A stretch of 36,443 bases of DNA. Source: a virus. Below, piece after piece: positions 9,203 through 30,716 of the stretch. The position numbers and the translations under genes were made by a program. Below the pieces are notes generated by a model. That model saw only the letters and a program-made list of their open reading frames with translations. It was not told the DNA's origin and ran no database searches. Numbering within the stretch: position 1 is the first letter of the stretch; each line of letters starts with the position of its first letter. The DNA lies in the IMG/VR virus record IMGVR_UViG_3300037189_009927, positions 1 to 36,443 of that record. The stretch is one strand, 5' to 3'.

Positions 9203-9895
9203 ATGAAATTAGGGCTTGCTTTTTCCGGTGGTAAAGATTCTTTAACGTGTATTTTTTTAAATTTACACCGAATTGAAGAAATTACGGTTTTATTTGTAAA
9301 CACTGGAAAACTTTTGCCTGAAACTTTATCAGTTGTTGACTATGTAAAAAGCATTTGCCCTAATTTTGTTGAGATTGTTTCAAACAAAGATGAGCAAAAT
9401 GCTGTGCATGGCTACCCGTCTGATATTGTCCCAGTAAATTGGACATTTAACGGACAAAAAGTAAACGGAGAAAAGCCGATAAAAATACAATCTTATATTG
9501 ATTGTTGCGTAAATAATATTGCTTTTCCTTTGTATAAAAAAGCTAATGAGTTAGGTATAACTGATTTAATTTGTGGTCAAAGGTCAGATGAAAGCCATAA
9601 ATCAGCATCAAAAGACGGGGATATGTTATTTGGCATCAAAAGATTGCACCCAATTGAAAACTGGACAGCCGAAAATGTGATTGAATATTTAAATGAAAAA
9701 ATTAAATTACCTGAGCATTTTAATTTAAATCATACATCTATTGATTGTTATGATTGCACCGGATATTTAAGCAAGACAAAAGACATTAAGTTAATGCTAA
9801 AAGAAAAATATCCGGAAAAATTTAACGAGTTTAAGCACAAAGTAATTCAAATAAAACAAGCTATTGCAAGCGAGGCCGATAATGAATGGGTATGA
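9203..9895 (+). CDS. PAPS reductase-like / PP-loop ATPase family protein
   Basis: A 230-residue protein with the PP-loop SGGKDS at residues 8-13, placing it in the adenine nucleotide alpha hydrolase superfamily that includes phosphoadenosine phosphosulfate reductases. Further family-like segments are CGQRSDESHKS (about 123-133), a Cys pair CYDC near 180 and ENWTAENVIEYL. The typical C-terminal ECGIH motif of CysH is not seen, so sulfate reduction is not assured. The gene interrupts the ejection genes: it starts two bases after one and overlaps the next by 14 bases. Metabolic help, nucleotide chemistry or DNA modification are all possible; known phage homologues are functionally unsettled. Confidence 0.75.
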   Translation: MKLGLAFSGGKDSLTCIFLNLHRIEEITVLFVNTGKLLPETLSVVDYVKSICPNFVEIVSNKDEQNAVHGYPSDIVPVNWTFNGQKVNGEKPIKIQSYIDCCVNNIAFPLYKKANELGITDLICGQRSDESHKSASKDGDMLFGIKRLHPIENWTAENVIEYLNEKIKLPEHFNLNHTSIDCYDCTGYLSKTKDIKLMLKEKYPEKFNEFKHKVIQIKQAIASEADNEWV

Positions 9896-29019: not shown

Positions 29020-29238
29020 TCATACCAAACCTTTCATTTGTTGTTTTTTTGGTGGCTTACCATAGAATCTGTGATAGTTTTTACCGTCCACTTTCTTTTT
29101 AGTAATAGACCATCCTGCGTCACGCAAATCACTCAGTCTTCGACTGGGCGAAACTGAGCCGCATACAATACAAACCTCAAACATTGTCACGCCTTGGCGA
29201 CGTTGTAGAAGTTTTTTTAGTTTAGATGCTTGGGTCAT
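29020..29238 (-). CDS. Winged-helix-like small DNA-binding protein, 72 aa
   Basis: ATG 29238 begins MTQASKLKKLLQRRQGVTMF. The next part, EVCIVCGSVSPSRRLSDLRD then AGWSITKKKVDGKNYHRFYG, has the helix-turn-helix plus wing pattern of small phage proteins of this kind. It is first in a leftward regulator operon under a promoter at 29267-29295. The stop overlaps an ATG at 29023 (ATGA). A role as regulator is inferred. Confidence 0.7.
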   Translation of the reverse strand: MTQASKLKKLLQRRQGVTMFEVCIVCGSVSPSRRLSDLRDAGWSITKKKVDGKNYHRFYGKPPKKQQMKGLV

Positions 29239-29266
29239 AAATATCTTTATTGATGTTGACAAGTAA

Positions 29267-29295
29267 AATATACGCCGCCTAGTATGTAAAAGCAA
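29267..29295 (-). promoter_or_regulatory. Leftward promoter of the regulator operon
   Basis: On the minus strand TTGCTT (29295-29290) and TATATT (29272-29267) are 17 bases apart, upstream of the gene at 29238. The spacer holds TTACATACTAGGCG, which occurs in opposite orientation at 31632. Two GTTGTATTT(N)TGCA-type sites lie behind it. Confidence 0.5.
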
Positions 29296-29311
29296 TACAT
29301 TTTTTTAATTT

Positions 29312-29341
29312 TGCATAAATACAACGTGGTGCAAATACAAC
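29312..29341 (-). promoter_or_regulatory. Operator-like sites between regulator operon and large RNA
   Basis: On the minus strand GTTGTATTTATGCA (29325-29312) and GTTGTATTTGCA (29341-29330) are variants of the repeat at 24813-24842. They lie between the leftward regulator promoter and the rightward promoter of the large RNA, so both could be controlled together. Confidence 0.5.
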
Positions 29342-29360
29342 TATGCAATGTGTGATTTTT

Positions 29361-29369
29361 TGCTATGAT
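29361..29369 (+). promoter_or_regulatory. Extended -10 promoter of the large RNA
   Basis: TGCTATGAT is an extended -10 (TGN plus TATGAT) with no good -35. It predicts a start near 29376, exactly where the first RNA helix (GTTAG) begins. The operator-like sites lie 20-50 bases upstream, so activation or repression there is plausible. Confidence 0.55.
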
Positions 29370-29375
29370 TCTATT

Positions 29376-29983
29376 CGTTAGCTGCGTTCCAAATGTAATG
29401 AAAACTAACAAGGCAAAAGCGGATGTTTGAGGGGACTGCTGTCTAAATGGCATATGTAGAAAAGTGCAGAGAGTAGCCGTCCATTCCAGCGACGTAAAAG
29501 GCTGGGGCCAAGATTGAAGCGGCGGCGTTGAAGGAAACGCGACCAAGGTAGCTGACTCATCCTACCTGACGATGACTGGTAGATTCCGGTTGATTCGTTG
29601 GGAATGTGCTCTGTAATCAGCGAGCAGGTATTAACCCCTGCCCGCTTCAATGTTGGTTAGTCAGGGAAGCCCAAGCAGGTACATGCTACTGGCCTGCCTA
29701 TACAGGAATGCCCACCAACACCTAACCTGACCGGGTAAGAGTCAGGGCCAAAACGCATGCGCACTTCTGCAAGTACCATTGCAGCCCTTGGTACAGAAAT
29801 AGCCACCATAAAAACGGTAAGCAAATAGTGTGCAGTCGTGTTGGTGAATGTGTGTAAGCTGACACACTGAGGAAATCTGTAAATATGGCTCTCCGACACA
29901 GGCGGAAACGCGCCAAAAGGCTTTGGAGGCAGATATTGTGGTGCCATAGCCGGAGATCAGCACCTGTAACCAACAAAATTTAA
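29376..29983 (+). ncRNA. Large structured RNA (GOLLD/ROOL-like candidate), about 608 nt
   Basis: No convincing protein is encoded on either strand, yet hairpins are dense. Examples: GTTAG/CTAAC (29377-29409); CCAGC/GCTGG (29486-29505); GCGTT/AACGC (29525-29540); GGTAG/CTACC (29547-29566); ATTCC/GGAAT (29583-29605); GCGAGCAGG with CCTGCCCGC (29620-29645, one mismatch); TGTTGG/CCAACA (29651-29720); CCTGAC/GTCAGG (29726-29746); a pseudoknot at 29767-29794; and a 3-prime domain closed by TGTTGGT/ACCAACA (29839-29975). G+C is locally higher than nearby genes (34 of 60 at 29521-29580). A tRNA follows directly, as with GOLLD and ROOL RNAs of phages. Class membership is unproven. Confidence 0.78.
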
Positions 29984-30069
29984 GTGGAATCGGCGAAGTT
30001 AGAGAGTCGCGGCAGACTGTAAATCTGTTCACTATGTGCTAGTAGGTGCGAATCCTACATTTCACACCA
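29984..30069 (+). tRNA. tRNA-Tyr (GTA), class II, divergent, with encoded CCA
   Basis: Acceptor GTGGAAT (29984-29990) pairs with ATTTCAC (30059-30065); discriminator A and CCA end at 30069. D stem GCGA/TCGC; anticodon stem GCAGA/TCTGT with loop CTGTAAA (anticodon GTA at 30019-30021); long variable arm with CAC/GTG pairing, as expected for tyrosine; T stem GTAGG/CCTAC. Two usually fixed bases differ: position 8 is C instead of T, and the T-loop is TGCGAAT instead of TTCGAAT. It may work in translation, or mainly fix the 3-prime end of the large RNA through RNase P cleavage at 29984. Confidence 0.88.
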
Positions 30070-30110
30070 AATTATCATTTTCAAAATAATTTAGAATAAT
30101 TTTATTATAT

Positions 30111-30329: not shown

Positions 30330-30357
30330 TTGTGTTGTGTTTGTGCTAATGTGTGCA

Positions 30358-30472
30358 GGTCAAATGCGCACTCATTAGACGATTAAGGCCTTTAAGCCTT
30401 AGCTTTGTACCCTTAATTGGGCGGTGGGTGCGCACTGAAAAGCTAAGACTTAAGGGCTTTTTTTATTTGACC
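30358..30472 (+). terminator. Strong terminator within a pseudoknot-like structure
   Basis: An 18-base arm (30388-30405) pairs with 30440-30457 with one mismatch and one G-T pair, and seven T residues follow (30458-30464), so this is a strong intrinsic terminator. Its loop contains GTGCGCA (30428-30434), complementary to TGCGCAC (30365-30371) outside the stem, giving an H-type pseudoknot. GGTCAAAT (30358-30365) and ATTTGACC (30465-30472) are exact complements and enclose everything. It ends the unit that begins with the large RNA. Confidence 0.75.
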
Positions 30473-30716
30473 GTAATCTACACGATAGAAACGGGCTTGC
30501 ATGGGCTGCTTAGAATAAAACACCGGCACGCGATACACCCCGCGATGTCCGACTGAGCTAGGATTAGGTATCAGTTAAAGCTAACGGTAACTCAGGTGGA
30601 AACTAGGCCGTTTGTATAAGAAAATAATCCCGTCAAGCGAACTTGGTATTTTTAATTGTTTCTTTATTAAAGATATGGAGATGAGTGGATAATGATTGTA
30701 TCCACCCTAGTATAAT
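30473..30716. other. Non-coding gap of 244 bases, weak structure only
   Basis: No credible gene is seen. CTGAG/CTCAG (30553-30595) with inner GTTA/TAAC, and GTGGATA/TATCCAC (30685-30705), are possible hairpins; the latter could end leftward transcription of the HTH gene at 30717 but lacks a T-run. Comparisons with tRNA and group I intron motifs were not convincing. Confidence 0.5.

Follow-up and report, generated by a model that had tools for sequence, protein, structure and literature searches.

A modular structured RNA with tRNA-like elements beside a tRNA gene in a phage genome

Analysis of the window (the whole stretch of DNA studied here, an IMG/VR virus record of 36,443 bases) revealed a structured non-coding RNA region on the plus strand (pos. 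29376–29983), which very probably represents an uncatalogued modular class of RNA, in which A-domains alternate with interchangeable clamped modules. The A-domains follow the scheme ACG-CAU-helix ... helix-AGY-CGU, and the clamped modules comprise the KL (kissing-loop) module, the S-motif, several unnamed types, tRNA-like folds and real tRNAs. Judged from sequence comparison, the region is a modular array, not a single unique fold.

A conserved non-coding locus with an optional tRNA

All listed ORFs between 29247 and 30032 are on the minus strand and no longer than 99 aa. In a codon-position test against two homologues, G001 (71% identity over about 500 nt, at the distal end of the contig bearing the nearest terminase relative) and L092, substitutions were distributed evenly over the three positions, gaps broke the frame, and the corresponding frames of the homologues nearly always contained stops. 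On these grounds 29376–29983 is regarded as non-coding, with no conserved frame, in agreement with the original prediction of about 608 nt without credible coding; minus-strand coding within it was ruled out by the same comparison. The folding energy of the RNA was unremarkable (z = −1.46; 2 of 20 shuffles were equally stable), so minimum free energy was dropped as proof of structure, and the case that the RNA is structured rests on comparison.

The block immediately upstream (29310–29375, plus strand) is nearly invariant in the window, G001 and L092 and more conserved than the RNA downstream of it. It contains TATGAT at 29364–29369, repeated GCAWAAATACAAC-type words and TTGCAT/ATGCAA half-sites, and looks like an operator with an unusual promoter. 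A scan with the sigma-70 consensus did not list a promoter exactly at 29310–29375, so we only infer a promoter role for this block; the putative start of the RNA at 29376 was placed from it.

Directly 3′ of the RNA, as predicted, lies a tRNA-Tyr (GTA) gene with encoded CCA (29984–30069, plus strand), recognized by ARAGORN and by the Rfam tRNA model (39.8 bits). In L092, which lacks it, KL runs straight into the A/T-rich sequence found 3′ of the tRNA in the window; by this comparison, tRNA-Tyr is a removable, optional neighbour of the RNA. ARAGORN recognized no tRNA beside the RNA in L092 or G001.

Three further features of these contigs were recorded. Downstream of a 72-aa ORF located 3′ of the RNA, a further stretch also shows little credible coding (30330–30716); it contains the inverted repeats TGCGCACTCATTAG .. 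GGTGCGCACTGAAAAGC together with a run of T near 30460, and is possibly another structured RNA or a terminator. The contig that includes L091 and L092 (IMGVR_UViG_3300042868_007361) has two diverged copies of the 72-aa protein, one at each end, with 92% and 86% identity to the window protein. Amid the structural genes of the window lies a phosphoadenosine phosphosulfate reductase-like gene (9203–9895; phrog_424, E = 2e-17).

Modules of the 5′ and middle parts

The 5′ part of the RNA contains an S-motif (29412–29478; this and all following modules are on the plus strand), which in the window takes the form GGC-AAAAGCGGAU ... GCAGAGAGUA-GCC and was defined comparatively as a P1 helix (GGC/GCC), the conserved stretches AAAGCGGAU (29416–29424) and GCAGMGAGUA (29466–29475), and a variable P2. 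The pattern AAAGCGGAT-N18..48-GCAGCGAGTAGCC was found in at least 120 IMG/VR stretches. Among 66 non-redundant S-motif copies, pairing reached 301/330 for P1 and 298/330 for P2, against shuffle maxima of 259 and 242, respectively; P2 pairing is weak in the window copy.

A hairpin, UUCCAGC/GCUGGGG (29484–29507), is retained in G001 and precedes a tRNA-like fold (29513–29651) identified by comparison and by folding (z = −2.72 for this sub-domain). Its 10-bp acceptor-like helix AUUGAAGCGG/CCGCUUCAAU (29513–29522/29642–29651) is invariant between the window and G001 around a diverged interior, which establishes the domain-closing helix of the original prediction as real. A T-arm–like hairpin (29624–29628/29637–29641) abuts the 3′ strand of this helix with no linker, in a tRNA-like manner. 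In L208 the CCGCUUC end of the fold likewise occurs after a canonical T-arm, and in L118 and L205 the GAAGCGG/CCGCUUC helix closes KL. The next module (29651–29720) is clamped by UGUUGGU/ACCAACA, 7 bp with a one-sided change in G001, and has an unconserved interior; it is followed by a hairpin, CCUGAC-CGGGUAAGA-GUCAGG (29726–29746), that is near-identical in G001.

The A-domain (29753–29839; ACG-CAU-GCGCAC ... GUGUGC-AGU-CGU) has a covarying inner helix and encloses an H-type pseudoknot (29767–29794) composed of S1 (29767–29771/29780–29784) and S2 (29773–29778/29789–29794). S2 is GUACCA/UGGUAC in the window and CUGCCA/UGGCAG in G001, two two-sided changes that substantiate the predicted pseudoknot. 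Inner helices of at least 5 bp were present in 34 of 87 ACGCAT/AGYCGTG pairs, the window copy included, compared with a mean of 4.6 and a maximum of 11 in 500 shuffles.

The KL module

The 3′ part of the RNA is the KL module (29839–29975), which consists of a closing helix (UGUUGGU/ACCAACA), two arms and an insert. The 5′ (D-like) arm is GUGUG-UAAGCUGA-CACAC (29850–29867), and the 3′ (T-like) arm, which contains one mismatch in the window copy, is GCCGG-AGAUCAGCA-CCUGU (29949–29967); their loops, GCUGA (29858–29862) and UCAGC (29957–29961), are complementary. Starting from a weak match of 41 nt to an Enterobacter plasmid, the module was traced to the string GCCGGAGATCAGCACCGG, which matches at least 120 IMG/VR stretches; a first string search with the window's own variant gave zero matches, because in the T-like arm the window departs from the string by a letter. 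A GCGCAGGCTGATGCGC-like arm precedes the string in 114 of the 135 sites examined. The closing helix spans both arms, at offsets that are typically constant and with letters that differ among phages.

Analysis of 42 distinct KL sequences with the insert removed revealed that 97.8% of cells were paired and that 12 of 22 pairs had two-sided changes, values reached by none of 500 shuffles; pairing fell to 30–50% when the partners were slid. Since the KL string had a fixed T-like arm, the search was rerun with the 5′ arm as the sole anchor, and the T-like arm was recovered by structure alone in 45 of 71 sites. The recovered arms had mostly UCAGY in the loop and a covarying stem (GCCGG/CCGGC, GCTGG/CCAGC, GCCAG/CTGGC, GTCGG/CCGAC and GCCCG/CGGGC). 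A strict structure-only descriptor detected 81 copies, all with AUCAGC in the T-like loop, in 2.06 Mb of loci that had largely been gathered with the KL string itself, and zero copies in a block-shuffled control; a loose descriptor allowing G-U pairs was discarded because it gave more than 1000 chance matches. As GCUGA/UCAGC is almost invariant, covariation neither proves nor disproves contact between the loops. Covariation among homologues, proposed with the original prediction as a check, was thus found in KL, the S-motif and the A-domain, assessed by shuffles, and in pseudoknot S2, as two-sided changes between the window and G001. Note that the shuffle statistics for KL, S and A ignore shared ancestry, with non-redundant sets that retain sequences of up to about 90–93% identity, and that the KL and S collection counts are lower bounds, partly biased by the query strings and taken from loci of which many are fragments.

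The order of elements in KL is that of tRNA: an acceptor strand, a 3-nt linker, the D-like arm, the insert, and the T-like arm set directly against the acceptor 3′ strand. A canonical T loop is absent from KL; the Rfam tRNA model (E up to 10) did not match the module and found only 29984–30066, and no encoded CCA was seen 3′ of the window KL. An alternative reading of this topology would be a three-way junction whose arms run parallel, like that of purine riboswitches.

Exchange of modules and tRNAs in one slot

Arrays vary in the number and order of their modules; their 5′ content differs and KL is conserved. The conserved flank CAGYCGTGWTGG, which opens up to three modules per locus, was followed by KL in 14 cases, by S in 2 cases and elsewhere by other module types. 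Recurrent modules in this slot also include those beginning 'GYGTYAAGCCAGCATTYGAGGATG..', 'CGTTACGGGGCGGGGCGCTGTCATGGCGCG..' and 'TGACGACCA..' (L198, L455, L168, L161 and L423). The slot accepts tRNAs as well: behind the same CAGCGTTGTGG flank, E. coli has KL whereas Salmonella phage SPN9TCW has a real tRNA-Arg, and behind the same CAGTCGTGTTGG flank, the window has KL whereas G001 has a degenerate tRNA with a UUCGAUU T-arm and a GUUGGC/GCCAAC acceptor (a weak tRNA-Sec match, E = 0.2). Recognized tRNAs occur within the KL insert (L212), immediately 3′ of KL (L161, L177 and the window) or at the array head (L455), and also near the arrays of P1, L205 and others; L177 carries six tRNAs 3′ of KL. 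In L212, the ARAGORN tRNA-Pro overlaps the KL insert (522–746). Outside recognized tRNAs, T-arm hairpins numbered 10 in 56 kb near KL, compared with 2 in the remaining 429 kb of these loci, a density about 38-fold higher near KL.

Distribution in phages and prophages

A scan of GTDB genomes with the KL string gave 118 stretches, of which 16 had the whole module. The full module was missing at 104 of the 120 genome-contig places that had the string, so string matches alone are not taken as evidence; such places are presumably chance or coding. Genera with full KL are Enterobacter, Pectobacterium, Pantoea, Pseudocitrobacter, Pseudomonas, Stutzerimonas, Xanthomonas, Stenotrophomonas, Pseudoxanthomonas and Burkholderia, in addition to a few MAGs. 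The predicted Gram-negative host was borne out for these relatives, as all named full-KL hosts are Pseudomonadota except one MAG labelled Phycisphaerales; the Gram-negative host and podovirus morphology predicted for the window phage itself are putative.

HK620 and P1 are among the named phages with full KL. E. coli prophages carry KL between a cI-type repressor and yfdP, and a 501-nt E. coli array query (KL with upstream modules) had near matches, many of them partial, in 1593 of 5426 complete E. coli genomes. In P1 (AF234172, about 68.9–70.2 kb), the array holds tRNA-Asn and tRNA-Thr as well as a KL module. The annotated P1 ORFs plp and upl (L236 963–1532) run on the strand opposite the structured array, with plp overlapping tRNA-Thr; both may not be real genes. 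The genes trnT, plp, upl and trnI, situated within the array copy, over it or close by, were scored as non-essential in a P1 CRISPRi study (PMC10695390), so the array is probably accessory under laboratory conditions.

Comparison with known large RNAs

Rfam detected only a tRNA in 29200–30110 at E values up to 10, neither GOLLD nor ROOL in the window at the gathering score, and only tRNAs in ten loci with homologous arrays (P1, HK620 and others), besides C4 and isrK elsewhere in an E. coli locus. All Rfam families, GOLLD and ROOL included, were thereby rejected as the identity of the array. Of the two options in the original prediction, membership of GOLLD or ROOL fails, and a new class of similar architecture is upheld: the RNA is large, structured and intergenic, with a variable 5′ part and a conserved 3′ module, beside tRNAs.

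In GOLLD, conservation is universal in the 3′ region and lower in the 5′ region, and the linker sometimes contains tRNAs (PMC12286853). The array resembles it as a large phage or prophage RNA that adjoins tRNAs and sometimes holds one inside, with KL conserved at the 3′ side and variable 5′ content. This likeness is one of analogy, not homology, since the array differs in its lack of an Rfam match, in its variable length and order, and in its relatives in phages of Pseudomonadota. With ROOL the array shares a length of about 600 nt, ornate folding, pseudoknots and a phage location near tRNA islands (PMC12286853), yet a tRNA within 1.5 kb is missing from most KL loci, the conserved modules are others, and there is no fixed architecture. 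The resemblance raises an RNA-only assembly, in which copies would be joined by kissing loops into a ring or cage that might hold tRNAs; the size, phage context, layout and adjacent or embedded tRNAs fit such a reading, and the near-invariant complementary KL loops would suit intermolecular kissing. Nanocages are characteristic of both known classes, a 14-mer for GOLLD and a closed homo-oligomer for ROOL. We nevertheless consider such an assembly unlikely, as neither sequence nor covariance models related the array to GOLLD or ROOL and the variable number and order of modules suit a closed symmetric cage poorly.

The roughly 800-nt non-coding RNA of Vibrio phage ICP1 is likewise a large, orf-less and very abundant phage transcript (PMC7567579). 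The orf-less region of this RNA, which is the most abundant transcript of ICP1, (L360 6097–7109) contains GCAGAGAGTAGC, identical to window 29466–29477 of the S-motif, an identity of 12 nt that occurred in 0 of 2000 shuffles, and GGCGAAATGCAAAGTG lies about 580 nt upstream of it. No KL was seen there, and the relation consists of these 12 nt and a possible helix; a tie between the two RNAs is a lead only. Our literature search, which covered mainly the main texts of freely accessible papers, found no description of the module class, so that an earlier report is possible.

Possible functions of the array

The best overall explanation, which in our estimate falls slightly short of an even chance, is that the array is a new modular RNA class acting as a tRNA-mimicking scaffold or decoy. 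The tRNA-mimic scaffold is suggested by the exchange of tRNAs, T-arm folds, KL and S in one slot. Each clamped module would offer an acceptor-like closing helix, to which KL adds the arm order of tRNA; like tRNAs, the modules share the slot position and, in some copies, T-arms. A stable, accessory scaffold acting in trans might in this way present tRNA-like shapes to a tRNA-handling factor of the host or the phage, with a processing enzyme, a translation factor or a tRNA-cutting defence nuclease as candidates. We regard this trans-acting mechanism more guardedly than the explanation as a whole. The diverse gene neighbours of KL fit a free-standing RNA, and the array would be transcribed independently of neighbouring genes. 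The non-essential scoring of the P1 genes (PMC10695390) fits an accessory role. Against mimicry stand the failure of KL to match the tRNA model, the scarcity of tRNAs near most KL loci, and the more cis-like position of the S-motif.

The last point leads to the reading of KL and S as cis-acting mRNA elements, 3′-UTR or leader structures that would set the stability, processing or termination of operons; the window would then contain a run of such elements ahead of the terminase operon. Many S-motif copies start 2–12 nt past a stop codon, and 18 of 66 follow a protein with an SSB-type tail, of which the three tested are SSB by Pfam. Many freshwater phages also have stand-alone S-motifs 2–12 nt past the stop of ssb or of other genes (L436–L552; e.g., L213, L451, L496 and L546), a position that suggests a 3′-UTR role for these copies. 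Terminator-like hairpins occur downstream of KL in 10 of 53 loci, compared with 5% of random positions, and the HK620 KL lies between the late promoter pR′/qut and the terminator tQ. The latter position resembles that of lambda 6S or late leader RNA; other array copies, however, are in unrelated places, and the array is much larger than that RNA and modular. This reading is improbable as a general account: a search for a fixed gene partner found diverse neighbours and none that was constant, and a plain stability element does not predict swaps of KL, tRNA and T-arm folds in one slot.

Still less probable is a tRNA-gene nursery, with the modules as remnants of tRNA arrays that aid adjoining tRNAs through a shared promoter and processing by RNase P or RNase Z. 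The tRNAs at array ends and inside arrays, including the tRNA-Asn and tRNA-Thr of P1, and the enrichment of T-arm hairpins near KL agree with it, but most KL loci are without a nearby tRNA, L092 and G001 keep the RNA without one that ARAGORN recognizes, and the conservation of KL and S is far above what decaying remnants should show. An element acting at the DNA level (a recombination cassette, or a signal for integration or packaging), with palindromes that only resemble RNA helices, would account for cassette-like exchange at shared flanks and for several copies near terminase genes, but is very improbable given the common wobble pairs (U-G in 18 of 66 copies at one S-motif pair), the highest conservation in loops and internal loops, and the covarying H-type pseudoknot.

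Returning to tRNA mimicry, a broader proposal, which we put forward as speculative and rather unlikely in its full form, is that phages of Pseudomonadota share an RNA cassette system, an A-domain backbone with KL, S, other small folds and real tRNAs as interchangeable plug-in modules, whose stable mimics would shield phage translation from tRNA-targeting host defences. Rfam and the literature searched both appear to lack a conserved RNA module that occurs in more than 100 IMG/VR stretches as well as in E. coli prophages, P1 and HK620. The role of large ornate phage RNAs is a long-standing question that could become testable in P1, and tRNA mimicry is the concrete hypothesis that arises from finding KL, S and tRNA interchanged in one slot.
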